Part shown: positions 9,446-43,219 of the stretch, piece by piece
How the letters are laid out: every line of letters begins with the position of its first letter
Numbering within the stretch: position 1 is the stretch's first letter
Assembly: GCA_013151745.1 (NCBI GenBank)
Contig: JAADHS010000069.1
Span: 1-54,708, forward strand
Length of the DNA: 54,708 nt
From: Gammaproteobacteria bacterium
Lineage (GTDB): Bacteria; Pseudomonadota; Gammaproteobacteria; JAADHS01
Direction of reading: 5' to 3'
Notes under the pieces: model-generated
What the model was told of the DNA's origin: nothing
Seen by the model: only the letters and a program-made list of their open reading frames with translations
Database searches by the model: none
Made by a program: the position numbers and the translations under genes

Positions 9446-9560
9446 GGTGGCTTATACCGGTCTTCTGGCAACGATAGATTGTGAACCCCGTCAGGCCTGG
9501 AAGGGAGCAGCGGCAGCAGTTGATTCGGGTGTTGGAGTTGGGCGGGTGTGAGCCGCCACC
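9446..9560 (+). ncRNA. ffs: Signal recognition particle RNA (bacterial small, 4.5S type)
   Basis: About 115 nucleotides. The diagnostic apical loop is present: GTCAGGCCTGGAAGGGAGCA followed by GCGGCAGCAG, the GGAA tetraloop and the asymmetric internal loop that bind Ffh. The ends pair (GGTGGC at 9446 with GCCACC at 9555-9560). It guides nascent membrane proteins to FtsY and the Sec translocon. Position just upstream of dnaX is common in gammaproteobacteria. The exact ends are set by the pairing, give or take a few bases. Confidence 0.94.
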
Positions 9561-13259: not shown

Positions 13260-16200
13260 TCAAGGTGTTTCACGCCAGTCGAGGTAACGATCATCGCCTC
13301 GAAAAATACCGAAAGTTGCTGTTGCAGAGGGGCTGTCATTATACAGACCGCCACCATCTAGGTCGAAACGTAACCAAGTCTCCCAGTTGGTTGTCACTTG
13401 ACTGCTGCCTCCAATGTTACCGCTATCACCGGTAATGCTTAATGTCAGGTTACCGATGCCATTGCTGATGGGAACGGCGCTGCTCGGTGAGGCGCTGACG
13501 GTGATTTCTGTTGAGGTGGGTGTGCTGTAGCTGAAGGTGCTACAAGAGTCATCCGTATTGTCTAGCCAGTCGCCATTCCCTGCGAAATATTGTGCGCCCA
13601 TGTTCAGTGTTAAACTGTCGCCAATCTGAGCCAGGGTACCATAGGCGTCCTGAGCATAGCCTCGGCCAAAACGTTGTAGGTTACCCGCGGGTTTGATGTC
13701 CTTGGGCGATGCTAAATCGTTGGCGCTTGCTTCGCCATCGGTCACCGCTGTCAGTTGAATGCTCAAATCCGCCATAAAGGGTGCGACTTGCCCCGCACTG
13801 CGATCATAAACGAAACTATCAGGGCTGCCAGCGCCCAGCGTAAAGGTGAGTGAACCGTCACCATGATCAAGGCGAGTCAGGCTCCCCTCTAACGAGCTTA
13901 AAGTCAGAGCTGTGCTGCCATTTTCGTCTACTTGTGTATTATCAGCGCTAGGATAATTTAGCGAAACACCGCCGGTTGTGAGTTTGGCAAATGCATTGCT
14001 ATAATTAACCGTTGTGGTACCTGTTGAGTTTTTCGCAGTTGTTGTTATCGTTGGTTGGGACATATAGGAAAAACTTTGCCCGAGATAGGTAAACGGGGTA
14101 CTGAGCGGGGTACTGCTGATGCAAATATTGGCGAAACTGCCATCGGTTTTGGTCGTTATAAAGTAGCTTGGGTAGAAACGCCCGATATTGTTGCTGGTGG
14201 TGCCGATGATGTCACCTGTGCCCAGATAATCGCCATCGGCAACGCTGGGGGTGAGGCTGATGATGCCGACTTCTGTCCATTTATAGCTTCCCGTGTCGAC
14301 GCCGGAGACAAAGCCATCAAAGCCGGTGCCTGAAGCATACTCGCTAAATGTACCTGTTGCGCCGCCACTGGGGGCGATCAGTGCGGGTGTTAATGTTATG
14401 GCTTCCGGGCTGGTTTCCTGGCCATAATTGGGTGTGGTGTCACCATCGCTGTTTACTGCGCTGACGGCCACTGAAAATGGTTCTCCTGCGGCCATGAACT
14501 TTTCACCACTTGCTCCGCTGGCTGCCGGGTTGGCGAGGCTGTCGCTGGTTCGTACGATATCGCTTAAAATAAATCCGGCGGGTTTGACGACGAAAGTGCT
14601 ACTGGCACCTTTGATACCTCCAGGTAAATTGGGGTCGCTGTTAGTGGCATCTTTCATCTCAATTGAAATTGCCCCCACGTCGGTGTAATTAACTGTGATT
14701 TCAGCCTGACCTTGTGTGAACGTCACATTTTGCGCCGTACTGGCACTTTCGTTAGTGGCGATATTACTGCCCTCTATGGTAACTGTAACGGTGCCGCTGG
14801 TCGGATTACTGTAATTCGACCAAAAATTCAGATTTTTTACACCAGTGTAACCTTCAATAATGCCGCAAGTGCTGTCATTTGCGGTCGCGCCATAGGCGGC
14901 CAGGTACAGGTTCAAGTTGGTCGCCGCGATTTGATTAGCGATACTCAGGTCGATAGGCAAGTTGGGCGGGTTATTTAACGCCGTAGCGGTAACGGTAAAA
15001 CCACTGGCGGAAAAGACCAGATTGCTTTCACTGTCATCATCACGGATGAAACCATCGTAGCTATCTATATCAATACTGGCCGTACCACTCAGGTAGCTGA
15101 GGCTAAAGGTTGCGACACCGTTGTCTGAGATATCGTAAGTATAGGTGGCGATACCATCGTCAGGGAGGGCATCGTTAAAGCTGCCTGAACCGGATGTGAG
15201 TGTCCAGGTGCCATTCCCACTTTGCGTATCTAAAGTGATACTACCAATGTAACTGGTATACGTGCTGCCGTCGATAAATTTGGCGCTGACACTAACATCT
15301 TCTCCCGCGCAATGGATTCCCTGGCCATCATGAGTGACGACGAAGTGATCAAGATATTGTGGGCAGGGGTGAGTATTGTCGCGGTCATTTATGATGTCGT
15401 TGGCACTGAGTACGCTATTGTAAATACGCACTTCATCCAGGGCGCCGTTGGCCGAATTTTCAGTCATATAAGTCGTAAAATAATTGCTGCGATTATCTCC
15501 GAGATAAAGGGTATCCAGTTGCCCCAGGGTACCGCTAGTGATGTACTGTTGAGAAACATCGAGCGAGCCATTGATGTAAATTTGTAGTACATCATTGCTC
15601 AAGTCCCAGGTGATGGTAAGATGTACCCAGGTGTTGGCGGCAAAATTCTGTGAATTGCCCGCGAGACGAATATCAAAATCACTGCTGTCTTCCAACCCCA
15701 GATGCAATATGCCAAATTTATCCAGACTCAGATAGAAATATTTGTTTGTTCTGGACGCGTCCAAAAGTTGCCGGTCAGCACCGCTGGCGTCGTTCCATTG
15801 GGTATTGCTTTTGTACCAAAAACTAATGGTGCCGGTATTGCCAACGTCATCATTGATATCAACAGTGGTATCGATGGCATCGAAAATAGTGGCGCTGGTA
15901 TTAGCGGGTATGTCAGCATAACCACAAGTACCGATGTTCCCGGCGATGACCGGCGTGTTGTTGCGAGGGATGACGCCACTGATGACACTGCCATCGTTAT
16001 TATTGCCACTGTTGTCGGCAACGACACCCCAATTGGCTTCATCCAGGTTATAGTAAGCGATGATATCCGCTGTGCAGGTATAGGTTTGATTCATCGCGAC
16101 GTTAATTTGTGAGGCACTCAAGGCGGCGTTATAAATACGAACTTCGTCAATCTGGCCGTCAAAGTAACGACCGGTGGAGCCTGTAGTAGCGCCTATTTTC

Positions 16201-19200
16201 AGTGTGCTTGCCGTTGTTTTTAAATTTTCAGCAAGGGTATCGCTATTGCGCTCGATACCGTCTATATAGATTTTTTGTGAGCCACTATTATCATAAACAA
16301 GGGCGACGTGATACCAGTTTCCTGGCGTAATCGTTACCCCACTGCTGGTTAATGAGCGACTGGTGTCACTGGCATTATTCCACCACCAATAAATATTGCC
16401 GTTTTCATCGAGGTAAAGTTCGTAGTTTAAGTTTTTAACAATAATACCTTTCAATTGCCCACTACCGGGTAAACTGTCTGCTTTAAACCAGCCCATTACG
16501 GTCAATTTATCATTGATATCCAGTAAATTATTATCTGCAACTTCAAGAAAATCACTGCTTCCATTCAGCGTCGCACCATTACAGGATTTCGCTGTAGTGG
16601 GTGTTGCCCCTCCTTGACGAACACCATGTAATAAAGCATTGACCCCGCTATCTACGACTTCATTCACCGTACCATCCCAACTGAGTTCGTTTAAACGCCA
16701 TTCGGCGATCGGTGCAGGTAAGGCGGGGTTACAGGGGTGGGTCGCCGCTTTGTCGCTTTGTATTTTTGACGTTGATAAAATTTCATCATAAATACGCAAT
16801 TCATCAATGGCGCCGTTGGCAGAGTTTGGTGTCATATTTCCGTTTTGATAACTGCTGCGGTTGTCACCGATATAGAGACTGTTCAGATTACTGATGATAC
16901 CGTTACTTGAATATGAAGAATCTGTTTTGTCTAAACTCCCGTTGATGAAAATCTGCAGCTGATTATTGGGTAAATCCCAGCTGATCGCGATATGTACCCA
17001 GGTATTTGCCGTAAAGTTTTGTATGTTTCCGGCAAGATCCAGGTTAGTGTTAACACTGTCGATGATACCGAAAAACAGTTGCCCGGTACTCTTTAACGTT
17101 AGGTAGAAAACCTTCCCGGCGGCGGTTGAAGCATCGAGCAATTGTCGGTCTGCGCCGCCTTGCCAGTTACTGTTGCTTTTGTACCAAAAGTTAATCGTAC
17201 CGGTGTTACCGATGTCGCTTTCGATATTGACTCCGGTATCAATGGCATCAAAGCTGAGTAGAGTGGTATTGGCATCGATGTCGGCATAGCCACAACTGCC
17301 CGGATTGCCTGTGACTGCTGGATTGGTATCGCTGGGGGAGACGCTACCAATGATGTTGCCGTGTTGATTAAAACCACTGCTGTCTATGACGCTGCCCCAA
17401 ACGGTTTCATCCAGTTGATAGTAGGCTTTAGGATAGGCAAACCAATCGATATTGTTGTCGCTGTCGATGCTATTGGTGGGACTGATCGTTTTTTGGCTGT
17501 TATCAGAACCGGAGGCATCAGAGTCTTGAACGTCAACGTAGTCAATGGCTTTGCTGGCACCACTGCCAATGTTTAATTTCCATTGTAGGGGGCTGGCGGT
17601 AGAGCGTAAGCTCAAAAGATCCAACGGTGCGCCGCTTAACGTGATGTTATTGTTAATGGTTTGTGTCTCACCGGCACCAAAGGTCAAAATGTCTGACGAG
17701 GAGACGGTTTTATCCAGATTGTAAAACGTATTGTCACCGCGGAGGGTTTGATTGCTGCCGTCGAGAGTGACTGTGCCGCTGTTAGCCGTGAACGTGGCCT
17801 TATTTGTCCAGTTTCCGGCGACATTGAGAGTATAGTTGCCGACGCTGTGGGTATCCAGGGTGCCGGTGTTGATGTCCAGATTGCCATCGATGTCCATAGG
17901 GTCTTGCAGGGTATAGGTACCATAGGCGTTACCGGCGCGAGTACCGCTGGCCAAGGCAGAGACTTCGGCGGCAGACAGGGCGCGATTGTAGATGCGAACA
18001 TCATCAATGTTGCCATCAAATTCATTACTTTCATTCGAGTCTTGAAATTTTCCAATATATAGCCCTGATGGTAAAGGGCTATAATTGATATTCCCAGATT
18101 TTAATACTGAAGAGTTGAGTGTACCATTTACATAAAGTTTGATGCTGCTTCCATCGTATGTGCCTGCTAAATGATACCATTGACCTAATTGCAATGTCGT
18201 TACTGAAGTCGTTGCAAATAAATTATTCGATGACGTTGCCACTCTAAACGCGATACCATTTGTATTGTTTGAAAAGAACAAATCATATCCAGATTCAGAA
18301 GAACCATTGTCCCAGGCATTTGCGACAATGCTCTCCCATTGGGATGATGAGTCTATATAAGCCCATAAAGAAACGGTAACTTGGTCAACAGGTTTAAGTG
18401 AAAAATGAGTGCCTGCATCAATATAATCATCTATCCCGTCAAAACTCAAACTACGATCATTAATAAAATTTACTGAAGGTATATTGTTGGAAATCGCTGG
18501 TGAATTGATATGCGTTCCGATATTGCCAAAGCCAGAGCCATCCGCTGCACTGGTGCCACTGGTTTCATCAAAATTCCAATGGCCCACCAATCCACTGCCT
18601 ATGTCTACATGATTAAATGTTTGTCCGGCATTGCGAATAATACCGCCTGCACCCTGAAATATCACTTCTCCAGTAGAGGTAAACGTGCCACCATTGCTAT
18701 CCCAGTTGCCGCTAACGCTAATCGTATTGGCTTCGCCTATCAGGCTACCGTTGATATCCACATGAGTAGTGACGACACCACCGCCTGGTGTATAAGTATG
18801 TACGCTGGGGATGAAAAGCTCTGTTGCGGCACCATCGGCAAGAAGGTTATCACTGCCATCCACGCTGAAAAGCATATCATTCCCATCACTGTACTGGGCT
18901 GTGCTGAGGTCAGCATTACTTGTTGTGCCGCCATTGTCATTGCGTATGACTAAATGGTTCTGATAAATGTTGAATCCACTCAGAGGATTGCCATCCCCTA
19001 CAGTAACGGTATTACCCACTGTGGCACCATTGGTATCCAGATAAGACAATAAGGTTTGTCCTGGTGACAGTCCCGCTGTGATGGCGTAGGCCCCATTGGC
19101 ATCGGTGGTCGCGGTGAGGTTTTGTTCGTTATTACCATCGATGACCAGGCGTATGGGTTGATTTATTAGGGGCATGATTTCATTGTCATCGGCAAAAGCA

Positions 19201-22200
19201 AAACCGGAAATATCAATACTACTGGTAAACCACCATTGCGGATCACCGGTGCCATCATCGTTGCCCACACCATCCGTTGCGTTATGTGCATAAATATTAT
19301 TACTGCTGGCCGCAGCGTATTCCACATCGACGTAGTCTACATTTTGTATGCCGGCGGTGACATCGAAAATATATTGACTGGTGTCGGTAGAGCGTAATTT
19401 AATTTTGCTGGCGGTAGTTTGGCCATTGAAATCCAGGATGCCATTAATAGTGTAGGTAGCGCCCCCTTTAAAGTTCAGCGTTGAGTTTGGCGTGAGATTG
19501 CTGAATGTGTTGACCGTAAACCCATCGTTGAAGGTGATCCCCGCACTTGATGCATTGCTGAGAGTTAAATCATTAAAAGCATTGCCGCTCATGGTGATAC
19601 TTTGTGCTGTAGAGCCGTCTAAAATAAGGGTTGAGTCTGTCGAAATGAAATTAGCCTGGATGGTACCTGAGCCTTGAGCTTGAATATTCAGATTTGTGCT
19701 GATGGTTATGGTGCTATTGCTGCCATCCAAACGTTTTAAAGCCGTATCATTTCCTGCGCCAACAATAAGGTTTCCTGAGATGCTTAAGTCAAAACCGGCG
19801 GTGTTATAGGTCATATCCCGATTAGGATTATCGCCAATGTATAAATATTTTCCATTATTGATGGTGATATTTCCGGTTTGGTTTACCGTCAGTCCATTAT
19901 TTGCTATTTCAATATTAGCTTCGTAACCATTAGTGAGTGTGGGTATATTTTGATTTCCTATACCAAAAAAACGTAAATCCACATTGGTGACATTGGAATT
20001 AATATCAAAAGCCAGGGAGTCCAAAGCAAACAGATAGATTTTTCTTTTGTTGACACCAAAAGTGCCTGATCCGATAGTGAGTAAATTGGCGATGGCTATA
20101 TTACTATTTACTGTGGTTGTGTTTCCGTTTTGCCCCGCCGTAAGGTTTTTGAACCCATTGGTAATTAACCATGCTGCCGTGTTGGTGTAAACCAGACTTC
20201 CTGTACCGGTCAAGATCAACGAAGCATTGCTGAAACTGGTACTGTCCATCGTGCCATCGGCTGTAAAATCACCGCCCACCGTGATCGTTGAGCCATTCGC
20301 TTTCATTTGGCTGGTTGTTGATGATTGCTCATAATTTCCTGATACCGAGAGCGCGTAGTTATTGGCCGACGTGGTATCCAGAGTTCCTGTGGTGATTGTC
20401 AGATCACCGTTAATATTCAATGTTTCATTAAGAAAAACATTATTTTGTAATGCTGAGCCGGTGTTGCTTATAACCAGGTTATTGAAGCTGTAGCCTGAAG
20501 AGGTGATAGATTGGTTAACATTGCCATCAAAGGTGACGGTCGATATCGCTGCGGTGAACATGTCGTTGTTGATCCAGTTGCCACGCACATTGATGTTGCC
20601 ACTCCCGGCATCAATTTCATTCGTCCCCCCTGAATCGGAGGCGTAAATATTAACATCACCGTTAATGGTTGCCACGGAATTATTAAGCAGTAGTTTTCCG
20701 TATTGATTATTTGAAGTACTGCCAATTTGTAACTGATTGCAAGTCAGTGACTGATTGGCGGTATCCAGAATTGATGTCCTGCCTGCACCATTGCCCATTA
20801 ATAACAACGTATTGCAACTGATATCCCCCAGTAGTATGAAATTATTATCGACACTGCCCGATGCAAGCCATAAATTCGGGTAACTGGTGCTGGTAATGTT
20901 GACCGGGTTACTCCATGGGTTATATTTGAATTGAGAATTAGATAATGTCGCCCCCGAGGTGACCAGCGGTGTACCGCCATTTTTGCCGAGTATGACGACG
21001 CCGCCTGCCACGGTACCCGTTCCCAATGTCATGATATTTGTGGCCACCATACCTCGGGTTGCCAGGATCGTCGTCGTATTACCACTGGCGGCAGCGTTGA
21101 CATTGTAAAAGCGTTTTTCAGAGGCCCACCAATTAGTGATATCAACGCTGATGGTACCACTGCCGGCGAAATCAACAGTACTGGTACCCGCATTGAATGT
21201 CCCGTTGGTATTGTCCCAATCACCGTTGACGGTCAGAGTATTGTCATCTGCGGTAATGGTACCGAGAATCTTGACATGTCGGGTCGTAACTTCACCGGCA
21301 TTCCCCGAGTCCGGACGGTAGGTGTTATTTTCTTTAATGTATAGCGTTTCTTCCAGCAGTGCTCCGGTGATATCAACCGTTAAATTATTCGCGGCATTGA
21401 CATCATAAAAAACATCTTCGTCGCCGCTAACGGAATTGTCGTATTGGCTGAGGTCAGCATTACTGAGGGTTTGATTATCATCACTGCCGATGGTCAGGTG
21501 CTCTTCAATAAGCTCGATTCCGGTCATGTTGCCTGTACCATCATATTTGGTCACCGCGACTGCTTCATTGATATCCATGGCCCCATCAATGAAGACGGTG
21601 ATGATATCACCTGAGAGCGGAGCCACATTAGAAATACTCCAGGAACCGGCTGACGTGGTGGTTGTTTGTCCTTGCAACGTACCATTAATTGCTACAGCGA
21701 TCGTACGACCATCGGCACAATTGCTCGTTTCATTTTGTTGTTTACAGGTGCCTGACAAGCTAATGGGTGTGGAAAAAATCCAGTGGGGTGACGGGTCGAC
21801 GTCATCATTATTTGAGACGCTGGTTGAGTTATTGGCAATGATATTGTTGCTTGAAGCTTCAGCATCGGTGACGTTAACATAGGAGACGGTTTGCATACCA
21901 CTGGTGACATCCAGGGTAAAACGGGTTCCTGCCACGTCACTTTGTAAAATAATTTCACTGCTGTTTGTACCATTGAGGTTCAGAGTACCCAAGACAGTAT
22001 GAGGCGAACCTGTATCGAAAGTTAGCGTTGATCCAGCCGTGGTATTAGTGAAATTGGTAGTGGTCAGGGCGTCGAGAAAACGCACGCCCGCTGTTGAGGC
22101 GTTGGTGACGATTAAATTATTGAAACTTTCGCCGCTACTCAGCACTGTTTGTGCCGCTGTACCATTTAAAAAGACGCTGGAATTGGTTGAAATTAACGTT

Positions 22201-24434
22201 GTTGTACCAGAACGAATATCGAGATGAGTACCGATGGTGACGTTGCTATTGGTTATATTGAAAATTTTGGATCCGGTGTCAGCGCCAGTACCAAGCCGAA
22301 TATAACCTCCTACATTCAGATCAAAGCCACCGGTATTGTAAGTGACGGCTCGGTTGGAAAAGCTATCCCCGTCGAGAATGAGATTATTACCCGTATTAAG
22401 GGTGATCGGGCCGCTTTGGGTGACATTGCTATTGTTGCGACTGAGGCTGATATGGCTATCGTAGCCATTGCTCAGAGGCGGGATATTTTGCGTAACATTA
22501 CCATGAAAATACAAAGTATCGATATCTACGATTGAGTTGATATCGAACGACAAGGGGTTCGGGGCACCTCTTAGATAAATATCCGGTGCATTGCCGCTCC
22601 CCGTCAAGGTTCCGGAACCGACAGTGAGCACATTTAATACGCTAAATTCGATATTGGCCTGGGTTGTGGTATTGCCGCCTTGCCCGGCTGTTAAATTATT
22701 AAAGCCATTATTCCAAGGCGAAGAGAGGTTGTTATAGGTGAGAGAACCGACCCCATTCATCACCAGAGAAGCGTTGTTATAGCCCGTATTGGAATCGCTG
22801 CCATCTGCCATAAAATGGCGACCCACGGTGAGAGTTGATGAACGGGCCTGAATTTGCCCGCCTGACTGTAAAAAATCGTTAGCGACGTTAATGGCGTAAT
22901 TGGATCCATTTTTTGTATCGAGAATGCCATCGCTTATAGTGAGATCATTGCTCACGTTTAAAATGGATTCAAGTTGGTAAATTGCCGTTCCGCCGGTATT
23001 ATTGAAATTGATATTATAAAAGTCGGCGGTGGTGGCACCACTTGAATCGACCGTTTCAGTGCCAGACCCCGCAGTGAAATTCACACTGGAGGTCCCTGCA
23101 GTGAAAATGGCATTGTTGTCCCAGGAGCCGCTCAAATTGATATTGTTACTATCCGCAATAAGTGTGCCGTTGATTTCCAGATCACGCGTGGAAACATTGC
23201 CGGAGGGTTGGTAGGTATTGCCGCTTTTGATATAGAGTCTCTCTACGGTCAATGATCCCGTTATATCGACCGTCAAATCATTCAAAGTGTTGACCTCATG
23301 AAAAATATCTCCGTCGCCGCTGACGGAATTATCGTATTGGCTGAGATCAGCATTGGTCAGGGTCTGGTTGTCATCGCTGCCGATGGTTAAGTGGTTTTCA
23401 ATCAGCTCGACTCCCGTGATGTTACCGGTGCCATCGTATTTGCTTACCGCCACGGCTTCTCTGGCATTTAATGCACCATCGATGAACACAGTAATCACAT
23501 CGCCGCTTGCTGGGGCCGTTATACCGGAAATCGTCCAGCTTCCGCTGACTATCGGTTGTGTTTGTGCTTGCAACGTACCATTAATGGCTACGCGCACTGT
23601 CCCTGTGTCAGAGCAGTTGGTTACTTGATCTACTTGCTGGCAAGTGCCAGAGAGGGTGATAGTGGCTACCGCCGCTCTGTAAGTGGTAATGGATGAAATC
23701 CACCAACGGGGTGTTGCTAATGTGGCTGTGCTGGAATAGGTTCCCGTCGAAGATACAATTTGATATTGGGTATTTAATGTCCTTAAAGGATATCCCGAAG
23801 GGGCCGATGCATTTCCAGTGCGAGGTAACAAGGGCGTGTAACCGGTGCCAGATGTGAACCCGTCGGCAATGGGGCCTTCTACACTGATGCTGCCAAAAAG
23901 CAGTTCATCTGCCAGGTTGGTATTTGTACTACCTGAGTTTGTAGAAACAACGCTTCCGCCAGCGGCGCTACTGCCATCTAGCGTTGTACTCGCACTCAGG
24001 CCAGAGAACTCATGTACACTGATGACTCGACCCCAAATCCAGGGGTGAGTGATCGTGAACGTATCCGCGGTGGTCAGCGCGGTGACATTATGTGCTGAGC
24101 AGGTGACCGAACGCATCACGGTATCATTTCTGTCAAGGTCAATCGTATAACTATTTCCCTGACTGTCACTGCAAGTCACACCCAACCCGCTTCCCTGATC
24201 TAACACCATCGTTATAATCAGGCTGTTGCCAGCGCTAACATTGGAAGAGACACTCAGAACAGAGGTCGTATTAAAAGAGGTGCTGGATGCAGAGGCGCCT
24301 TGCCCCACTGTTTGTACAAAATTAATTGCCGCCTGTGCCTGTTTACTGTCGAAAGAAATCAGTATAAAAAGCAGCAATAAAAAGAGAAATGTAATACCCC
24401 GATGCTGTGGATTGAGTGCGATTGGATTTTTCAT
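13260..24434 (-). CDS. Giant MshQ-like LamG/DUF6701 surface protein
   Basis: About 3724 residues from the ATG at 24434, chosen because it opens a clear signal peptide (MKNPIALNP then a run of F/L/I, ending SKQAQA); the frame stays open to 24509, and neither start has a good ribosome-binding site. Order: N-terminal jelly-roll-like region (to about 260); long beta-rich NGT/GSWT/DVN repeats with a 1.9-kb duplication (about 260-1740); LamG-like domains at about 1945-2160, 2340-2565, 2575-2785 and 2795-3020; and a DUF6701 region ending ATFGIFRGDDRYLDW, the tail typical of MshQ. MshQ belongs to MSHA pilus loci, and this gene lies downstream of such a locus here, but it is several times longer than usual. 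Probably secreted, with an adhesive or glycan-binding role. It is convergent with nsrR. Confidence 0.85.
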   Translation of the reverse strand: MKNPIALNPQHRGITFLFLLLLFILISFDSKQAQAAINFVQTVGQGASASSTSFNTTSVLSVSSNVSAGNSLIITMVLDQGSGLGVTCSDSQGNSYTIDLDRNDTVMRSVTCSAHNVTALTTADTFTITHPWIWGRVISVHEFSGLSASTTLDGSSAAGGSVVSTNSGSTNTNLADELLFGSISVEGPIADGFTSGTGYTPLLPRTGNASAPSGYPLRTLNTQYQIVSSTGTYSSTATLATPRWWISSITTYRAAVATITLSGTCQQVDQVTNCSDTGTVRVAINGTLQAQTQPIVSGSWTISGITAPASGDVITVFIDGALNAREAVAVSKYDGTGNITGVELIENHLTIGSDDNQTLTNADLSQYDNSVSGDGDIFHEVNTLNDLTVDITGSLTVERLYIKSGNTYQPSGNVSTRDLEINGTLIADSNNINLSGSWDNNAIFTAGTSSVNFTAGSGTETVDSSGATTADFYNINFNNTGGTAIYQLESILNVSNDLTISDGILDTKNGSNYAINVANDFLQSGGQIQARSSTLTVGRHFMADGSDSNTGYNNASLVMNGVGSLTYNNLSSPWNNGFNNLTAGQGGNTTTQANIEFSVLNVLTVGSGTLTGSGNAPDIYLRGAPNPLSFDINSIVDIDTLYFHGNVTQNIPPLSNGYDSHISLSRNNSNVTQSGPITLNTGNNLILDGDSFSNRAVTYNTGGFDLNVGGYIRLGTGADTGSKIFNITNSNVTIGTHLDIRSGTTTLISTNSSVFLNGTAAQTVLSSGESFNNLIVTNASTAGVRFLDALTTTNFTNTTAGSTLTFDTGSPHTVLGTLNLNGTNSSEIILQSDVAGTRFTLDVTSGMQTVSYVNVTDAEASSNNIIANNSTSVSNNDDVDPSPHWIFSTPISLSGTCKQQNETSNCADGRTIAVAINGTLQGQTTTTSAGSWSISNVAPLSGDIITVFIDGAMDINEAVAVTKYDGTGNMTGIELIEEHLTIGSDDNQTLSNADLSQYDNSVSGDEDVFYDVNAANNLTVDITGALLEETLYIKENNTYRPDSGNAGEVTTRHVKILGTITADDNTLTVNGDWDNTNGTFNAGTSTVDFAGSGTISVDITNWWASEKRFYNVNAAASGNTTTILATRGMVATNIMTLGTGTVAGGVVILGKNGGTPLVTSGATLSNSQFKYNPWSNPVNITSTSYPNLWLASGSVDNNFILLGDISCNTLLLMGNGAGRTSILDTANQSLTCNQLQIGSTSNNQYGKLLLNNSVATINGDVNIYASDSGGTNEIDAGSGNINVRGNWINNDMFTAAISTVTFDGNVNQSITSSGYSFNNLVISNTGSALQNNVFLNETLNINGDLTITTGTLDTTSANNYALSVSGNYEQSSTTSQMKANGSTITVGGDFTADGTMDSTSFSNASLILTGTGSLVYTNTAAWLITNGFKNLTAGQNGNTTTVNSNIAIANLLTIGSGTFGVNKRKIYLFALDSLAFDINSNVTNVDLRFFGIGNQNIPTLTNGYEANIEIANNGLTVNQTGNITINNGKYLYIGDNPNRDMTYNTAGFDLSISGNLIVGAGNDTALKRLDGSNSTITISTNLNIQAQGSGTIQANFISTDSTLILDGSTAQSITMSGNAFNDLTLSNASSAGITFNDGFTVNTFSNLTPNSTLNFKGGATYTINGILDFNGQTTASKIKLRSTDTSQYIFDVTAGIQNVDYVDVEYAAASSNNIYAHNATDGVGNDDGTGDPQWWFTSSIDISGFAFADDNEIMPLINQPIRLVIDGNNEQNLTATTDANGAYAITAGLSPGQTLLSYLDTNGATVGNTVTVGDGNPLSGFNIYQNHLVIRNDNGGTTSNADLSTAQYSDGNDMLFSVDGSDNLLADGAATELFIPSVHTYTPGGGVVTTHVDINGSLIGEANTISVSGNWDSNGGTFTSTGEVIFQGAGGIIRNAGQTFNHVDIGSGLVGHWNFDETSGTSAADGSGFGNIGTHINSPAISNNIPSVNFINDRSLSFDGIDDYIDAGTHFSLKPVDQVTVSLWAYIDSSSQWESIVANAWDNGSSESGYDLFFSNNTNGIAFRVATSSNNLFATTSVTTLQLGQWYHLAGTYDGSSIKLYVNGTLNSSVLKSGNINYSPLPSGLYIGKFQDSNESNEFDGNIDDVRIYNRALSAAEVSALASGTRAGNAYGTYTLQDPMDIDGNLDINTGTLDTHSVGNYTLNVAGNWTNKATFTANSGTVTLDGSNQTLRGDNTFYNLDKTVSSSDILTFGAGETQTINNNITLSGAPLDLLSLRSTASPLQWKLNIGSGASKAIDYVDVQDSDASGSDNSQKTISPTNSIDSDNNIDWFAYPKAYYQLDETVWGSVIDSSGFNQHGNIIGSVSPSDTNPAVTGNPGSCGYADIDANTTLLSFDAIDTGVNIESDIGNTGTINFWYKSNSNWQGGADRQLLDASTAAGKVFYLTLKSTGQLFFGIIDSVNTNLDLAGNIQNFTANTWVHIAISWDLPNNQLQIFINGSLDKTDSSYSSNGIISNLNSLYIGDNRSSYQNGNMTPNSANGAIDELRIYDEILSTSKIQSDKAATHPCNPALPAPIAEWRLNELSWDGTVNEVVDSGVNALLHGVRQGGATPTTAKSCNGATLNGSSDFLEVADNNLLDINDKLTVMGWFKADSLPGSGQLKGIIVKNLNYELYLDENGNIYWWWNNASDTSRSLTSSGVTITPGNWYHVALVYDNSGSQKIYIDGIERNSDTLAENLKTTASTLKIGATTGSTGRYFDGQIDEVRIYNAALSASQINVAMNQTYTCTADIIAYYNLDEANWGVVADNSGNNNDGSVISGVIPRNNTPVIAGNIGTCGYADIPANTSATIFDAIDTTVDINDDVGNTGTISFWYKSNTQWNDASGADRQLLDASRTNKYFYLSLDKFGILHLGLEDSSDFDIRLAGNSQNFAANTWVHLTITWDLSNDVLQIYINGSLDVSQQYITSGTLGQLDTLYLGDNRSNYFTTYMTENSANGALDEVRIYNSVLSANDIINDRDNTHPCPQYLDHFVVTHDGQGIHCAGEDVSVSAKFIDGSTYTSYIGSITLDTQSGNGTWTLTSGSGSFNDALPDDGIATYTYDISDNGVATFSLSYLSGTASIDIDSYDGFIRDDDSESNLVFSASGFTVTATALNNPPNLPIDLSIANQIAATNLNLYLAAYGATANDSTCGIIEGYTGVKNLNFWSNYSNPTSGTVTVTIEGSNIATNESASTAQNVTFTQGQAEITVNYTDVGAISIEMKDATNSDPNLPGGIKGASSTFVVKPAGFILSDIVRTSDSLANPAASGASGEKFMAAGEPFSVAVSAVNSDGDTTPNYGQETSPEAITLTPALIAPSGGATGTFSEYASGTGFDGFVSGVDTGSYKWTEVGIISLTPSVADGDYLGTGDIIGTTSNNIGRFYPSYFITTKTDGSFANICISSTPLSTPFTYLGQSFSYMSQPTITTTAKNSTGTTTVNYSNAFAKLTTGGVSLNYPSADNTQVDENGSTALTLSSLEGSLTRLDHGDGSLTFTLGAGSPDSFVYDRSAGQVAPFMADLSIQLTAVTDGEASANDLASPKDIKPAGNLQRFGRGYAQDAYGTLAQIGDSLTLNMGAQYFAGNGDWLDNTDDSCSTFSYSTPTSTEITVSASPSSAVPISNGIGNLTLSITGDSGNIGGSSQVTTNWETWLRFDLDGGGLYNDSPSATATFGIFRGDDRYLDWRETP
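19220..23660 (-). repeat. Long internal duplication in the giant gene
   Basis: The stretch encoding SGTC..C..AINGTLQ..Q, SGDVITVFIDGA, TIGSDDNQTL and ADLSQYDNSVSGD is present twice, 1893 bp (631 residues) apart: matching bases begin at 23334 and 21441. A third, shorter and more diverged copy begins near 19220 (DISGFAFADDNEI). The two main copies remain similar at the DNA level over hundreds of bases, which points to duplication within the gene. Boundaries are approximate. Confidence 0.8.
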
Positions 24435-24613
24435 AAAAGGGATAGGCGCACAAAGTCGTCTAGGGACGGAATGTCGTAATTTGTTATAAAAGATGAAATT
24501 GACTGCCAATAAAATTGGACTATTGGATATTTATCCATGACAATGAAGTGAGTCTATAATTTAAGAGTATGATTCCTTGCCTTTAAATATCGACCTGTTA
24601 TGGCTAAAGTTAA

Positions 24614-24856: not shown

Positions 24857-26092
24857 TCACGCTGTCACGCTTAACCGTTTAGCGATCAGCTCGATATTGG
24901 TTTTACTCACGCCAAATTCCTTCGCAAGACGTTCCCAAGCACTCAAAGCGTGTTGCGTTTGCTCAATGATCTGGGTAATCCGCTGTAATTTCAGCTTTGC
25001 CACTTGGCCAAGCTTGATCAAATGTGCTTTTCCGGGATTTTTTCCCTCACCCATCACCATCGTGCTTTGTTCGCCTCGCGGTCCGGAGGAAAACGTCAGG
25101 TCGTAGGCCGGAGCCAGTTTCCACTCTCCCTTTTCATCCATGAGAAAGGTAAAATTTTTCGCATGATCATCGCGATTGTGTGCCAAAACATTAAACACCG
25201 CCAGTTGAAACATCTTCTCAACCTCACGCACATCACGGGTCAGAATTTCGCTCAAGGCAATCAAATCTTCATAATCCAACGAAGGGGTACGAAAATCAGA
25301 ATGAAGTAGCCCACACGCCGTATGGCAATGTAGACGACGACTGCCCTCACGGTCAAAGCGCTGTGTCGCAAAATAACCGGCGCCATGTTGCGCGGGAAAA
25401 AGATGAGACGGGGTTAGTGCAATACCGGCCTCGCGCGCCATTTGAGCATAGATATATTCAATCGCCCCGGCATCGCTCCCATCTTGCATATTAGGAAATT
25501 TTACCAGCCAGGACTCATAAGATTCATGTAAATATTTGAAACCGTGGATAATGTGCTGGCGTGCGCTATCCACACCTATCATGGCCTTGGGTCTTGCTCC
25601 GGCTGAGGAACCGTTAAGCGCCAATAGTTCTTGCAATACCTCTCCCGCATCACCTTTTAAGATGGCTTGTGCATGAGAGGCCAGCACATCAAGGTCAATT
25701 TTGGCATGGGATCCACCTGTATTGTAATCAGGCTCATAAACGAGCGCGCCCATGCCCGTATTTCCCACATATAATAGTCTATCAAGTGAGCTAAGCTGTT
25801 CGGGTAAAATTTCTTGCATACGCAATGTGCGATCCAGCAGCAGACGTCCCCAACCATCAGGTAAACTGTCATTAAACACGCCAGGAAGCCCCTCGAATAA
25901 AAACCGCTCAAAAGTCCGAACACCCGGCTGTAAGGACAAACGTAGAGGAGAGATTTCTAAATCACGCTCGATAAAAGAGAGATGGTATTCAAAGTAAATC
26001 TGTCCGTTCCGAATAGCCAGACGGCCAACCGGTAGTATATCCACTCCAAAATTCAAGCCCACTTTTACTTCCATTACCGGCGAATAACTCAT
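24857..26092 (-). CDS. hipA: HipA-type serine/threonine kinase toxin
   Basis: 411 residues, a normal full length. Seen: N-terminal domain with LEISPLRLSL and LFEGLPGVFNDSLPDGWGR; the glycine-rich loop GSSAGARPKA near 160, which holds the serine that HipA kinases autophosphorylate; the strand SWLVKF; GYFATQRFDR; the catalytic HNRDDHAKN near 305; and APAYDLTFS. HipA kinases inactivate targets such as aminoacyl-tRNA synthetases and slow growth. The start overlaps the hipB end by 4 bases, the usual coupled arrangement. All catalytic motifs are intact. It lies inside the MSHA region, where such a gene is not usual. Confidence 0.94.
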   Translation of the reverse strand: MSYSPVMEVKVGLNFGVDILPVGRLAIRNGQIYFEYHLSFIERDLEISPLRLSLQPGVRTFERFLFEGLPGVFNDSLPDGWGRLLLDRTLRMQEILPEQLSSLDRLLYVGNTGMGALVYEPDYNTGGSHAKIDLDVLASHAQAILKGDAGEVLQELLALNGSSAGARPKAMIGVDSARQHIIHGFKYLHESYESWLVKFPNMQDGSDAGAIEYIYAQMAREAGIALTPSHLFPAQHGAGYFATQRFDREGSRRLHCHTACGLLHSDFRTPSLDYEDLIALSEILTRDVREVEKMFQLAVFNVLAHNRDDHAKNFTFLMDEKGEWKLAPAYDLTFSSGPRGEQSTMVMGEGKNPGKAHLIKLGQVAKLKLQRITQIIEQTQHALSAWERLAKEFGVSKTNIELIAKRLSVTA

Positions 26093-26394
26093 TTACGCCA
26101 GCCCTTCTTCCGAGTTGTTTTTTTACTGGACTCCAGCACCTCATCAATGGATAAAAATTCCGCTTGCTCGAATTCAGTAGCCAACACGACCTGCTCCAAA
26201 ATATCTAAAACCATCAATAGTTTAAGAAAGGATTCCAAAGATATCCCTCCTTTTTGTTCAAATTTGCGTAAACTTGGCAGGCTCACACCCGAACGATTGG
26301 CCAACCCTTCTTGCGTCAGCCCTGTACTCAACCGGCGTGCACGAAGATTTTCAGCCAGCTTTTTCTGTGCTTTTGATACCGTTAATAGTGACAT
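26089..26394 (-). CDS. hipB: HipB-type antitoxin, XRE-family repressor
   Basis: 101 residues. Seen: a helix-turn-helix at about 12-65 (LAENLRARRLSTGLTQEGLA, SGVSLPSLRKFE) and a basic C-terminal tail (SSKKTTRKKGWRK) expected to contact the kinase. HipB-type antitoxins bind HipA and repress their own promoter. A perfect inverted repeat 37 bases upstream of the start is the likely operator. Coupled to hipA by a 4-base overlap. Confidence 0.9.
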   Translation of the reverse strand: MSLLTVSKAQKKLAENLRARRLSTGLTQEGLANRSGVSLPSLRKFEQKGGISLESFLKLLMVLDILEQVVLATEFEQAEFLSIDEVLESSKKTTRKKGWRK

Positions 26395-26798: not shown

Positions 26799-27242
26799 TT
26801 AAGTACATGTGGGCCCTGTAGCATTGTATGTTCTCACTGCCGAGACTATCGGGGCGGTATTGGCGGCTGCCGATTCGGCGTAAATAAAGCAGGCTGCACC
26901 CCTTGAAATAATCACTTGTGGAGGGGTAGTCGTATTATCATCCTGGATTGTAAAATCAGGGGAACTCAAACCGGCCAAAGGATCAATAGTGATATGATCG
27001 GGATAACCATTGACCCAAGTAACAGCAACGCCTTCGATAGTAGCCGTCGTGTTATTAATGAGCCACTGAGCATGGCTGATCGCCATAGCAGAATTGACCG
27101 CACCACGAGCACCCGCCACAGCCGCATTTTCGGCGTTTCCGGATAAATCCGCAAATTTAGGTAATGCGGTCGCTGCCAAAATACCCAGTATAACGATCAC
27201 CATAACCAGTTCGATCAATGTGAAACCTTGTTGTTTGACCAT
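26799..27242 (-). CDS. mshA: Type IV major pilin, MshA-like
   Basis: 147 residues. Seen: short leader MVKQQG followed by [16 protein letters not shown], the prepilin peptidase site and hydrophobic N-terminal helix; [17 protein letters not shown] in the helix; and two cysteines near the C-terminus (GAACFIY and GPTCT) expected to close the D-region loop. GGGAG lies before the ATG. A gap of about 120 bases from mshG suggests its own promoter. It is the only pilin in the window, whereas MSHA loci usually carry several (mshB, A, C, D, O). Length and position fit the major subunit MshA. Confidence 0.88.
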
Positions 27243-27361: not shown

Positions 27362-28576
27362 TTAAATCGCAACGTCGCCCAGGCTCCATAGTGGCAGGAA
27401 GATGCCCCAGGCCAAAACTAGGACGATGCCGCCGATAATGACGGTGAGAATGGGTTCAATTGCCGAACTGAGTTTATCAATATCATCTGCGACTTCAGCC
27501 TCGTAAAAGGTGGCCACTTCGGCCATCAGAGCATCAATATTACCGGTTTCTTCACCCACCGCCATCATCTGCAATACCAATGGGTCAAACATGCCGGTCG
27601 TTGTTGCCGTGCGGGTGATGGACTCACCGCGTTCTATCCCCGTTTGCATGCCGAGAATGCGCTCCTCCATGTAACAATTATCCAATATTTTGGCGACGAT
27701 TTGGAGCGCTGAAATCAGCGGTACACTGGCATGGGTGGCCATGGCAAACAAGCGAGTAAAGCGGGCGAGGGTGGCACGATAAATGATATTACCAACAAGT
27801 GGTATTTTCAGTTTGTATTTATCCCAATGATAACGCCCGTTATCGCTGTTGATGTAGCGACGGACACCAAAAAATGTAATGACAGAGCCGACGAATAGTT
27901 CCTTCCAGAAGGTCACCGTGAATTCTGAGGTGCCTAGTAAAATACGTGTAGCCAAGGGCAACTCGGCACCATATTTACTGAACACGCTCGCAAAAGTGGG
28001 TAATACAAACAGATTGATAATAACAATGGCGATAATGATCGCCGTTATTACAAAACCGGGGTAGCGCAAGGCGGATTTTATTTGCTTACGGGTTTGCCGG
28101 TCGCGTTCCAGGTAATAGGCCAATTGGGTGAAAATGTCTTCAAGTTGACCGGTGGTTTCACCGATGCGTATCATTGAAACATAAAATGGATTAAATATAA
28201 TCGGATGTTCGCTTAACGAAGTGGCCAAATCCCGACCGCTTTCAAGACTGTTGGTGACCGCCTGTAGGGTCTTGACTAGGGTTTTGTTTTTGCTTGATTG
28301 TGTCAAACCATGCAGTGCACTTAACATTGGCACGCCAGCTTTAATGAGGCTATGCATTTGTCGTGAAAACTGGATCAAATCAGTATCGTTTACCTTTTCA
28401 GGAAAAAGTGCATCCAGTTTTCTTTCATTACTGCTGACTTTGATCGGGGTGATGTCAACCGGCGTTAGCCCCCCTTCGATTAACTGGGTGGCGACCGCAT
28501 CACTACTGACGGCTTCCATGTTGCCCGTAATGGCATCACCACGGTGGCCGCGTGCTTTGTATTGATAGAGAGGCAT
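27362..28576 (-). CDS. mshG: MSHA pilus inner-membrane platform protein MshG (PilC/GspF family)
   Basis: 404 residues. Seen: MPLYQYKARGHRGDAITG at the start, two GspF domains (about 70-190 and 270-395), three membrane segments (near 168-190, 215-235 and 375-395), and the signatures MIRIGETTGQLEDIF and MMAVGEETGNIDALM. It forms the inner-membrane base on which the ATPase MshE assembles the pilus. It follows mshE by 10 bases, so the two are co-transcribed. Complete and normal in length. Confidence 0.95.
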   Translation of the reverse strand: MPLYQYKARGHRGDAITGNMEAVSSDAVATQLIEGGLTPVDITPIKVSSNERKLDALFPEKVNDTDLIQFSRQMHSLIKAGVPMLSALHGLTQSSKNKTLVKTLQAVTNSLESGRDLATSLSEHPIIFNPFYVSMIRIGETTGQLEDIFTQLAYYLERDRQTRKQIKSALRYPGFVITAIIIAIVIINLFVLPTFASVFSKYGAELPLATRILLGTSEFTVTFWKELFVGSVITFFGVRRYINSDNGRYHWDKYKLKIPLVGNIIYRATLARFTRLFAMATHASVPLISALQIVAKILDNCYMEERILGMQTGIERGESITRTATTTGMFDPLVLQMMAVGEETGNIDALMAEVATFYEAEVADDIDKLSSAIEPILTVIIGGIVLVLAWGIFLPLWSLGDVAI

Positions 28577-28585
28577 CGATTGATG

Positions 28586-30283
28586 CTACGTTTGCCAGCC
28601 ACTGATGCGCATCACTTCGCTGAGCGAGGTTTTTTTATGTGCAGCTAGGGTTAACGCGTTATTCAGTAGTGGTACAAACTGTTGTTGTTCTTTTGCCCCT
28701 TGTTTGAAGGCCGCATAGTCTTGTTGGCGCAAGGCATCAGCCAGTTCGTTGGTAATTTCTAACATTTCGTATACCGCCGTGCGACCGCGGTAACCGCTGT
28801 GGTTGCACGCAGGGCAACCGGCACCGTGATAAAAATGCAATGTTGTAGCACGTTCTTTTTCGACTACCGCATTGACCCAGGCTTGTTCACCCGGGTCTGG
28901 CTTTTTCAGGGTGATGCATTTTTCACAAATGAGACGGAGTAATCGTTGCGCGATAATGGCTTGTACCGCCGAGGCGACTAAAAATCCTTCTATACCCATA
29001 TCGATGAGTCGTACGGCAGTACTGATCGCATCATTGGTATGTAGCGTCGATAAAACCAGATGCCCGGTAATCGCTGCGCGCAGGGAAATCTCTGCCGTTT
29101 CTCTATCTCGTATTTCACCTACTAGAATAATATCTGGATCCTGCCTCAGTGTTGTTCGCAAGACCCGCGCAAAATCCAGGCCAATTTTCGAATTGACCTG
29201 AACCTGATTGATCCGCGGTAAGCGAAATTCCACAGGGTCTTCAACCGTGATTATTTTTTTCTCAGGGCAGTTCAGTGTATTGAGTGCAGCGTAGAGCGTG
29301 GTGGTTTTGCCACTGCCGGTAGGACCTGTAACCAGGATCAATCCGTGTGGCCGATGGATTGCCTTTTCCAGGCGGACTCGCAATTCTGGAGGCAGGCCTA
29401 TATTTTCCAGGTTGAGGATGTCACCGGATTGATCTAATAAACGCATGACCACAGCTTCACCATACTGGGTCGGCAGCGTCGAAAAACGGACATCCACTTC
29501 ACGTTGTTTGAGTTTAATGTTGAAACGACCATCTTGGGGTAAGCGACGCTCGGCAATATCCAGACCGGCCATCAATTTCAAACGAGAGACCAGTGCCGGC
29601 ACAATAGCTTTTTCATCCATCACCTGCTCATGTAATACACCGTCTATGCGGCGACGAATACGTAATACCGAGGCATCGGGCTCGATGTGAATATCTGATG
29701 CTCCTACGGTCATCGCATCTTCAAACATTTTTTCAATAAGGCGAACAACAGGCGCATCAGAAGAACTGACCGACTGATCGAGCAAACCCAGATCAAACAC
29801 AGTGTCTCCCAGGTCTTCATCTACGGCGGTGGCGAGACTTTGAATTTCACTGTCATTTTGGTAAACCCGGTCGATGGCATTGGCTAATTCACTTTCCTTA
29901 ACGACGGCCACGTCAACAGAGTCTTTTATGATTTTGACAAGATCATCGTAGTCAAAAATATTGGTAGGGTCGGCCATTCCTATCAGCACGCTTTGCCCGG
30001 TTTTTTTCAGGGCGATGGCTCGGTAACGACGTGCTGCTGTTTCCGGTATTAGTTTTACAACATCGGCTTGAAATTGAAATTGATCGAGATCAATATAAGG
30101 AATATCAAGTTGACGAGATAACAGTTTGAGCACATCGTCTTCTTTAACATAACCGTTTTCGATCAGGGTTCGGCCTAATTTACGACCCGACTGTTTTTGT
30201 TCTTCAAGGGCGGCGGCAAGCTGTTTTTCGGAAATCAGTTTATGTTTAACCAGCAAGTCACCCAGGCGAAGACGTTTAGCCAT
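28586..30283 (-). CDS. mshE: MSHA pilus assembly ATPase MshE (GspE/PilB family)
   Basis: 565 residues. Seen: an N-terminal MshEN domain of the c-di-GMP-binding kind with its repeated pattern (LRLGDLLVKHKLISEKQL and RKLGRTLIENGYVKED), a linker, then the secretion ATPase core: Walker A LVTGPTGSGKTTTLY near 320, VEDPVEFRLP, the His box STLHTNDA, and a zinc-binding tetracysteine (CEKC and CPAC) near 460-500. It powers pilus extension from the cytoplasmic face. The MshEN domain makes it a likely target of the GGDEF-EAL proteins in this window. mshL ends 3 bases before it starts. Confidence 0.95.
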   Translation of the reverse strand: MAKRLRLGDLLVKHKLISEKQLAAALEEQKQSGRKLGRTLIENGYVKEDDVLKLLSRQLDIPYIDLDQFQFQADVVKLIPETAARRYRAIALKKTGQSVLIGMADPTNIFDYDDLVKIIKDSVDVAVVKESELANAIDRVYQNDSEIQSLATAVDEDLGDTVFDLGLLDQSVSSSDAPVVRLIEKMFEDAMTVGASDIHIEPDASVLRIRRRIDGVLHEQVMDEKAIVPALVSRLKLMAGLDIAERRLPQDGRFNIKLKQREVDVRFSTLPTQYGEAVVMRLLDQSGDILNLENIGLPPELRVRLEKAIHRPHGLILVTGPTGSGKTTTLYAALNTLNCPEKKIITVEDPVEFRLPRINQVQVNSKIGLDFARVLRTTLRQDPDIILVGEIRDRETAEISLRAAITGHLVLSTLHTNDAISTAVRLIDMGIEGFLVASAVQAIIAQRLLRLICEKCITLKKPDPGEQAWVNAVVEKERATTLHFYHGAGCPACNHSGYRGRTAVYEMLEITNELADALRQQDYAAFKQGAKEQQQFVPLLNNALTLAAHKKTSLSEVMRISGWQT

Positions 30284-30286
30284 GAC

Positions 30287-32074
30287 TCATGTCTCCGGTA
30301 TAACATGAGGTTGGGTTGGTGCCGATTGACTGATCTGATCAAAACGCTGACGGGTGCGATTGAGATCTTGTTGCCAGGTTGAATTTTCATCGACGACCCA
30401 GGGGCGTAGCAAAATGACCAGCTCACTTTTTCGCGTCACTTTTTTGGTATGCTGAAAAAGGGGGCCAATCAGTGGAATATTACCTAACACTGGGACGGAG
30501 GAAACTTGATCGCGAGTCCGGTTTTGCATGAGTCCACCAATCACGATGACTTGGCCACTGCGAGCACGCACAATGCTGTCCGATTCACGAATCGTGCTGA
30601 CCGCAAGGGGGACGTTCAATTGCCCTGCGCTGGTCAGACTGATTTGTTTAAAACGTTCACTGACCTCGCTGACTGAAGGGTGGATATGTAAGGTGATAAT
30701 GCCATCTTCACTGATTTGGGGAATCACATCAAGTGCCACACCTGAAAAAAAAGGGGTAAATTCAACATCAATGGACTGGTTGCTATTGACCGTTGAGCCG
30801 GATAAATTGCTTTGACTTTTGACGTTGGTTACAAAAAACTCATCGGTACCGACTTTGATCACCGCTTTTTGATTATTAACGGTGGAAACGCGAGGGCTGG
30901 ATAAAACATTCACATCGCCCTGAGTTTCCAAAAATTCCAGAAAACTGCTGAAATCACCAAAATTAAGACCCAGCGCGAACATCCCACCAAAAGCTGATGC
31001 AACATCGGAACGAATGGTGCCCAAATCAGTGGGATCAAGGGCATTACTTTGCCCCTGTATATTGCTGAAACCCGTTTCGAAAATCGTGTTGCCACCAAAT
31101 TGACCCGCGACAATGGAATTGGATCCCTGATTGGCAATGCCAGACCAGTTAATGCCGGTTTGAAAGCCATCGCTTAATTCGACTTCGAGAATTTTAGCTT
31201 CCAATATGACTTGGCGTTGAATGATATTTTGTGTTTTTTCTAAATAGATGGCTACTGAGCGCAACTCTGCTGGCATCGCGCGGATAACCACCATGCCCGA
31301 TTGAGCATTAATAACCACTTGACGGCCTTCATTACTGCCAATGAGCGCTTCTAATGCAAGCGCAAGTTCGCTCCAGAAATCAGATACGGAGGACGTATCG
31401 ACTTGACTGCCCGAGATACTGCCTCTACCGTTTGAGTTTGTCGGTCTGTTGCCATTACCGTTATTGTTAAAATTAGGTGAATTCAAATTATTAGAGGGAT
31501 TAGAAGAACCAGAAGGCCGGTTGTTTCTAATCTGACCGGAGCTGATTTGTATTTGTGACCGGCCCTTACGAATAACGTTAAGGTAATCTATTTTAAAAAT
31601 CTGTGATCGTAACTGGGCGGGCATGACTTCAAAACCATTGTTAATGCGTTTATAGTCGTAATTATAAACATTGCGCACGGTTTCCATGACGTCATCTATG
31701 GTCACGTTTTTCAGTGTTAAACTGATGCTGCCCTCTACTGTGGGATGGGTGATCATGTTGTAGGGAGTATCTTTCACCAGACTCATAAAAAAAACCTGAG
31801 CAGGAATGTTACTGACATCAATGTCAAAACGGTGTTCGGGTGGACTCAAGTCAGCGGGATTGAGCTTTGTTTTTTTTGGAGCCGTCGCAATGTTGGAGGA
31901 GGGCGATGTTTGTTGTGCAGCGATGACGGTATTTTGCTCTATACTTTCTGCCAGGCTGTCTTTAATTTCAAGCGCGACACTGCTGCCTCGCGGCGGAACC
32001 GTTTGACAGGCGCCAACCATCAGCATGCTGATTATTATACAAAATCGTCGATAGAATAGTGAGTTTATCATCAT
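30287..32074 (-). CDS. mshL: MSHA pilus outer-membrane secretin MshL
   Basis: 595 residues. Seen: a lipoprotein signal (LMVGAC, cysteine near 22), an N0/STN-like domain (DIDVSNIPAQVFFMSLV), an S/N-rich linker near 180-225, and the secretin core, ending in GGLMQNRTRDQVSSVPVLGN and IPLIGPLFQH, the secretin signature. It forms the outer-membrane ring through which the pilus passes. Downstream of mshK by 7 bases and upstream of mshE by 3, so in one operon. The low-complexity linker is the only unusual point. Confidence 0.94.
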   Translation of the reverse strand: MMINSLFYRRFCIIISMLMVGACQTVPPRGSSVALEIKDSLAESIEQNTVIAAQQTSPSSNIATAPKKTKLNPADLSPPEHRFDIDVSNIPAQVFFMSLVKDTPYNMITHPTVEGSISLTLKNVTIDDVMETVRNVYNYDYKRINNGFEVMPAQLRSQIFKIDYLNVIRKGRSQIQISSGQIRNNRPSGSSNPSNNLNSPNFNNNGNGNRPTNSNGRGSISGSQVDTSSVSDFWSELALALEALIGSNEGRQVVINAQSGMVVIRAMPAELRSVAIYLEKTQNIIQRQVILEAKILEVELSDGFQTGINWSGIANQGSNSIVAGQFGGNTIFETGFSNIQGQSNALDPTDLGTIRSDVASAFGGMFALGLNFGDFSSFLEFLETQGDVNVLSSPRVSTVNNQKAVIKVGTDEFFVTNVKSQSNLSGSTVNSNQSIDVEFTPFFSGVALDVIPQISEDGIITLHIHPSVSEVSERFKQISLTSAGQLNVPLAVSTIRESDSIVRARSGQVIVIGGLMQNRTRDQVSSVPVLGNIPLIGPLFQHTKKVTRKSELVILLRPWVVDENSTWQQDLNRTRQRFDQISQSAPTQPHVIPET

Positions 32075-32081
32075 ATCAAGC

Positions 32082-32471
32082 TTACTCTTCAGCGGTTTTG
32101 GAAATTTGAGGTGAGTGCTGCCAAATGACGGTTTTGACCTCTTTTGGAGCTAGAGACAGTGTTATATTTTTACCTTTTACTCGCAACTGAACTTGTCCCT
32201 GTTGAATATCAACGACCGTGGCACCATTGATGTCATCACCCGGTATGACGACATAATCATTGATGACAGCGGTGCGCCGTTGTGAGGAAACCAGGGTTGA
32301 GCGGAGTACCCATGCTGAGGTTTTGTTTTGTTGCACCGGAGCTATTGTGGCAGTGGCTTTGTTGCTGTTGCCAATAGGAGGGCGTGTTGGGTCCTCCAGT
32401 TCGGCCTGAGCGGGTGCAATAGCACTGGTGTTTATCGCTAACATACAGATAATGAATAAGGTTTTATACAC
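32082..32471 (-). CDS. mshK: MSHA biogenesis protein MshK (PilP-like)
   Basis: About 129 residues from a GTG at 32471. Seen: signal peptide (VYKTLFIICMLAINTSA, ending APAQA), LEDPTRPP typical of MshK, and a small beta domain (LVSSQRRTAVINDYVVIPGD, GATVVDIQQG, VQLRVKGKNITLSL). In the periplasm it would connect the inner-membrane MshIJ to the MshL secretin. The GTG is preferred to the ATG at 32486 because AGAGGTGG precedes it and it overlaps the mshJ stop (GTGTATAA). In the operon between mshJ and mshL. Confidence 0.85.
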   Translation of the reverse strand: MYKTLFIICMLAINTSAIAPAQAELEDPTRPPIGNSNKATATIAPVQQNKTSAWVLRSTLVSSQRRTAVINDYVVIPGDDINGATVVDIQQGQVQLRVKGKNITLSLAPKEVKTVIWQHSPQISKTAEE

Positions 32472-33779: not shown

Positions 33780-33982
33780 GGTGTTAATACTTCCGTATAT
33801 CCCTTTACGAAACAAATCTGGATTGAGGCGAAATGCTTATATTCGCGCTACTACTTTTCGATATCGACCATGAGAGGCTTAAACTTGAATGCTAATAGGG
33901 AGATGATGTTGATCGCTGATGTGTCAATATTTTACCGGGCATCCGGTTACGAAATTTTTTGTATTCCTTCATAATGCCGCGG

Positions 33983-43096: not shown

Positions 43097-43114
43097 GATT
43101 GTCCTCCAAATTAA

Positions 43115-43189: not shown

Positions 43190-43219
43190 GAAGGGAATAA
43201 CTATAAACGAAATAGTATA

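Follow-up and report, generated by a model that had tools for sequence, protein, structure and literature searches.

The gene at 13260-24434 on the minus strand of the window, the whole stretch of 54,708 nt that was analysed (positions 1 to 54,708 of contig JAADHS010000069.1, assembly GCA_013151745.1, from a member of the Gammaproteobacteria), appears to have arisen by fusing members of two surface-protein families in frame. Judged by homology along its length, it is more than a long MshQ, as residues 1 to ~2,333 fall in a different family of giant surface proteins. We favor the reading that it is probably the mshQ of the genome's MSHA-type IV pilus system, a domain-shuffled, modular adhesin with a swapped N-terminus. 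From the ATG at 24434 the gene encodes 3,724 aa (391 kDa, pI 4.1). An alternative TTG start would extend the ORF to 13260-24509 (minus strand; 3,749 aa), and the ATG precedes a signal-peptide-like stretch read off the sequence (MKNPIALNPQHRGITFLFLLLLFILISFDSKQAQA, 24330-24434, minus strand).

The C-terminus carries the similarity to MshQ. A Pfam scan of the 3,749-aa form matched DUF6701 (PF20419) at residues 3159-3748 (E 7.1e-98, profile positions 10-577 of 577), in agreement with the sequence-only reading, which had taken the C-terminus to be MshQ-like. The colinear homology reaches beyond the Pfam domain, as far as alignment can tell: residues 2572-3724 align without a break to residues 418-1570 of a 1,570-aa relative encoded between mshA and the minor pilins of an msh cluster (L141), at 57% identity. 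In a class-wide sample, DUF6701 was present in 81 of 369 genomes, in open frames mostly of ~650-1,800 aa; the next longest, of 2,406 aa, is cut by a contig end. The gene had been described as several times the usual MshQ length, and the comparison with complete class-mates upheld this. Giant length is rare yet not unique, since a scan of named genomes found a second giant ending in DUF6701 (L187 2507-13399, 3,630 aa, from MAG M30B56), which rules out length alone as a unique trait. That protein differs in its front, built of different repeated units, and in its locus, which has no msh genes, and is regarded as an independent enlargement.

Four LamG domains had also been proposed, and Pfam found four Laminin_G_3 stretches (E 9.8e-87) at genome positions 17958-18440, 16758-17210, 16101-16565 and 15393-15854. 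The idea that these domains are an addition special to the giant gene did not hold. Laminin_G_3 was found in 22 of 36 DUF6701 proteins, others having PA14, GLEYA or H-type lectin domains, and on these domain matches LamG is ordinary on MshQ rather than a peculiarity of this gene. Homologues were expected to lie near MSHA genes, and msh core genes were seen in the fetched stretches of relatives at 29 of 40 loci from the class sample and at 34 of 51 loci from named genomes; they were not seen in the other 11 and 17, several of which are short contigs. No similarity to 11 MshQ relatives was found by alignment before residue ~1950 of the giant protein. The fronts of the closest relatives (L141/L143, L142 and L148) also differ from one another, so front swapping seems usual in the MshQ family, with the giant gene as an extreme case. 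Since fronts vary within the family, front homology is not strictly defining for membership.

The front has its relatives elsewhere. When residues 1-1968 were searched in the 369 class genomes, nine others matched, with identity of up to 58%; among these nine, DUF6701 occurs only in G368, where it is in a separate gene. None of the ORFs in the other 91 fetched DUF6701 stretches encodes a front homologue, and the source genome has no second copy of the front. Residues 1-~2333 are 43-58% identical to the stand-alone giant family, and the individual parts shared with it mostly show 40-58%; for example, the L211 protein aligns to residues 6-878 at 51% and the L213 protein to residues 33-790 at 55%. 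The stand-alone giants (L211/G203, L213/G201, L216/G129 of 4,506 aa, and L223/G277) have in common with the front the signal peptide, the N-terminal domain and/or repeated modules. They differ in having no DUF6701 and, in the three that were scanned, no Pfam LamG, and several adjoin a gene for a ~1,930-aa OmpA/DUF11-type protein. Similarity to the stand-alone family extends to residues ~2333-2346, and the homology switches at residues ~2333-2337 ('DNNIDWFAYPKAYYQLDE'), which is the start of LamG2. The front and tail are joined in frame, exactly at a domain border, with similar GC and GC3 on either side.

In several genomes with front homologues, the gene follows that of a ~355-aa protein and then that of the ~1,930-aa OmpA-like/DUF11 protein, and the neighbors are not msh genes. 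This set of three, the ~355-aa protein, the ~1,930-aa protein and the giant repeat protein, recurs in L211 (452-10430), L213, L222, L223 and L217, and looks like a surface-structure locus. The ~1,930-aa partner gene is absent from the source genome. In L211, a hipBA pair (17308-18001) different from the one described below lies ~7 kb from the front homologue, possibly by coincidence.

All parts of the giant gene lie on the minus strand. Behind the signal-peptide-like stretch, residues ~36-258 (23661-24329) form an N-terminal domain whose homologue is the N-terminus of the stand-alone giants, as the L211 and L213 alignments show. Module 1 (residues ~259-893; 21756-23660) consists of a short beta domain and then a beta-rich, probably solenoid stretch. 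Module 2 (residues ~894-1741; 19212-21755) is 51% identical to it over the ~620 aa that the two copies share, and carries a ~216-aa insertion. A third, shorter copy follows (module 3, residues ~1742-2333; 17436-19211) and is split by LamG1 (residues ~1948-2178; 17901-18593), nested inside it. The evidence for the nesting is an alignment with L222_10587, in which the continuous residues 265-560 (~295) match residues 1742-1942 and 2185-2332 of the giant protein, leaving a gap of the size of LamG1. GC3 is 0.35 in LamG1, compared to 0.41-0.61 in the remaining segments of the gene. Strong similarity to the MshQ relatives begins at LamG2 (residues ~2334-2570; 16725-17435), which is followed by LamG3 (residues ~2571-2789; 16068-16724; 56-60% identical to MshQ relatives), LamG4 (residues ~2790-3026; 15357-16067) and the constant C-terminal region with DUF6701 (13260-15356).

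These repeats account for what had been read as a 1.9-kb internal duplication. The exact spacing of 1,893 bp is real, separating 295-nt blocks at 21317-21611 and 23210-23504 that are 75% identical in DNA, and a further 33-nt block recurs at a spacing of 1,896. The extent of the duplication was misjudged. With the insertion in the second copy, the offset of ~631 residues grows to ~849, so the duplication as described covers only the first part of the ~620-aa module. An assembly stutter behind the repeat is ruled out by a DNA identity of just 75%. The observation that the second and fourth LamG domains look alike, with a different one between them, was sound: LamG2 and LamG4 are of one subtype and 56% identical, LamG3 is of a second subtype (23-30% identical to the other LamGs), and LamG1 is of a third. 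A recent duplication of LamG2 and LamG4 is ruled out, as their mutual identity is no higher than that with LamGs of the same subtype in relatives (54-60%), which indicates that the duplication is old.

Structure models agree with an all-beta protein at the C-terminal end. LamG4 with DUF6701 was modeled confidently (pLDDT 86) as a chain of beta domains, and LamG4 matches by sequence pentraxin-type and arabinanase lectin-fold structures. Foldseek matches of this model to sialidases and neurotoxin binding domains were set aside, because whole-model TM-scores were low and the likeness is one of common lectin and Ig folds. The model of a front module was beta-rich and poor (pLDDT 55). Its best Foldseek matches were all non-significant and nearly all beta-solenoids (autotransporter passengers, EtpA, tailspikes), and the front is probably a beta-solenoid by this modeling.

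By synteny, the giant gene is mshQ. Upstream on the same (minus) strand lie mshK, mshJ and mshI (PilP/PilO/PilN-like, 32082-33815), the mshL secretin gene (30287-32074), mshE (MshEN and T2SSE domains, 28586-30283), mshG (T2SSF platform protein, 27362-28576) and a type IV pilin gene at the position of mshA (26799-27242), identified by an N_methyl match and synteny. MshE and MshG are 73 and 68% identical to those of the L141 locus. The gene does follow an MSHA locus, as first read, though the pilin gene and mshQ are separated by a hipBA pair (HipA/HipB, 24857-26394, minus strand); none is found there in the closest relatives. In the closest relatives among named genomes, the Gammaproteobacteria MAG loci L140-L143 and L148, the order is mshI-J-K-L-M-N-E-G-A, a DUF6701 gene (1,215-1,570 aa), three minor pilins, an MshP-like gene and one more gene, and, apart from hipBA, the giant gene has the position of the DUF6701 gene in these loci and in L146. 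The insertion upstream and the loss of the minor pilins from downstream distinguish it from an ordinary mshQ locus. The four pilin-like genes and the gene that normally follows them have orthologues (44-66% identity) on another contig of the same genome (C59; L117 5825-9136), where they stand alone. With hipBA between mshA and mshQ, co-transcription of the latter with the pilus genes may have been lost.

Going by sequence matches, the genome has the parts by which an MSHA type IV pilus is recognized: MshE with its MshEN domain, MshG, MshL, MshI-J-K, and the minor pilins on C59. MshM and MshN are the exceptions. Only 3 bp separate mshL and mshE (30283-30287), between which mshM and mshN lie in most close relatives, and the assembly (95.6% complete) contains no orthologue of MshM (the best match across most of its length is 33% identical) and not a single match to MshN. 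As neither has an orthologue in the assembly, pilus function may be incomplete. A genome of the same family (G002) has kept an MSHA-type cluster and has no DUF6701.

Previous work describes MshQ in several ways. In V. cholerae, losing MshQ, named there as a putative adhesin, reduces surface MSHA (PMC7096442), and in V. fischeri, exchange of mshQ alleles alters squid colonization, mshQ being connected there with host specificity (PMC4094467). MshQ of Shewanella Z12 is larger than that of MR-1 (PMC7439477). The function of MshQ has also been given as unknown (PMC9815625), and this unsettled state counts against the modular-adhesin reading. The proposal of a pilus-linked giant adhesin of undescribed form was right as to the MSHA link, whereas 'putative adhesin' had already been said of MshQ. 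Our literature search found no paper on DUF6701, on TafC with fimbria, or on LamG with type IV pili. The likeness to ordinary MshQ lies in the C-terminal DUF6701, the LamG ahead of it and the place near mshA in the msh cluster; the differences are the length and the front of ~2,333 residues from another family.

Other pilus systems offer analogies. Type IV pili are known to bear swappable adhesive modules on the tip adhesin PilY1 and on modular pilins (PMC10191384), and one minor pilin has a ConA-like module that belongs to a glycan-binding complex (PMC9934059). In type IVa pili, the tip adhesin PilY1/PilC is, by analogy, likewise large, modular, non-pilin and linked to minor pilins. It shows no sequence homology to the giant protein, and membership in its family is ruled out, as the beta-propeller PilC/PilY1 domain was absent from the Pfam scan. 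PilC of Streptococcus sanguinis, a modular minor pilin with a ConA-like module, likewise has a lectin-fold module on a pilus component. Unlike modular pilins, the giant protein has no N_methyl match and no type IV prepilin N-terminus, and its N-terminus resembles an ordinary signal peptide. The TafC family fimbrial protein (NF052521) was rejected at 93.5 bits, under the curated cut-off of 410, and its best-scoring stretch was confined to the LamG region.

In the favored reading of a domain-shuffled MshQ, the tail of LamG2, LamG3, LamG4 and DUF6701 would be the ordinary conserved part of the clade's MshQ. The front to residue ~2333, with signal peptide, N-terminal domain, three beta-rich modules and nested LamG1, would derive from the separate giant family and would have replaced the ~350-450-residue variable front of an ordinary MshQ. 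After its predicted export, the protein would likely be tied by DUF6701, as its constant part, to the MSHA machine or the pilus tip, probably via the minor pilins, much as the PilHIJK minor pilins are capped by PilY1. Glycans would be bound by the LamG domains, and the front would serve as a long stalk or an extra adhesive surface; the order outward from the pilus would be constant DUF6701, then the lectins, then the long front outermost. Orthology with mshQ through synteny, the order of the domains and the fusion relationship come from the analysis itself, whereas export, docking through DUF6701, the pilus-tip role, glycan binding and adhesion are inferred. The mutually differing fronts of the closest relatives are what would be expected if the adhesive end is swappable. 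We also consider, tentatively and as somewhat doubtful, that DUF6701 is a general MSHA docking tail that accepts unrelated giant surface proteins, the pilus here bearing a ~390-kDa fusion fiber with four lectins.

An alternative is that, once fused and cut off from mshA by hipBA, the protein ceased to be part of the MSHA system and is exported by another route, acting as an adhesin on the cell surface or in the manner of an S-layer, with DUF6701 as a mere relic of its origin. The signal-peptide front derived from a stand-alone family, the hipBA pair between the gene and mshA, the missing mshM and mshN, and the giant DUF6701 protein in the msh-free L187 locus are all consistent with this. It is nonetheless unlikely, because the whole LamG-DUF6701 tail is conserved as in pilus-linked relatives (57%), the OmpA/DUF11-type partner of the donors is missing, and the MSHA core and minor pilins have been kept. 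A silent or decaying gene, left after hipBA and rearrangement broke the msh operon, would fit the minor pilins on C59 and the loss of mshM and mshN, but the reading frame of 3,724 codons is free of stops and frameshifts and its conserved C-terminal residues are intact, making decay very improbable.

A misassembly that joined an mshQ gene to a stand-alone giant one in the draft contig must also be weighed. The assembly is a draft of 292 contigs with 3.3% contamination, and the fusion is seen in this one assembly and in no other genome examined. Against this, the junction keeps the reading frame and coincides precisely with a domain border, GC and GC3 are alike on both sides, the genome has no other copy of the front, and the repeat copies (71-84% DNA identity across longer blocks) are too divergent to mislead an assembler; an artifact is thus quite improbable, though a little less so than decay. 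The taxonomic assignment of the contig needs care: MshE and MetH (34308-37985) are closer to another family (f64, at best 73% each) than to the two genomes of the same family (at best 54 and 67%, respectively), which could reflect contamination or a sister-family relation.

If the favored reading is correct, a fusion in which LamG-DUF6701 is retained and all that precedes it is exchanged would mark off a constant part, probably for pilus attachment, from a swappable part, probably for target binding. Few components specific to MSHA still have an unsettled function, MshQ among them, and the fusion would offer a direct test of whether it is the MSHA counterpart of PilY1; it also shows how MSHA-type pili may exchange sticky ends by cut and paste.

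Elsewhere in the window, a bacterial small SRP RNA gene (9455-9550, plus strand) lies just upstream of dnaX, and a SAH riboswitch (43110-43191, minus strand) immediately precedes the gene for S-adenosylhomocysteine hydrolase (41690-43156). A gene at 49439-51679 (minus strand), beside an HlyD-type export gene, encodes a DUF4347 and cadherin-like protein that is probably another surface protein.
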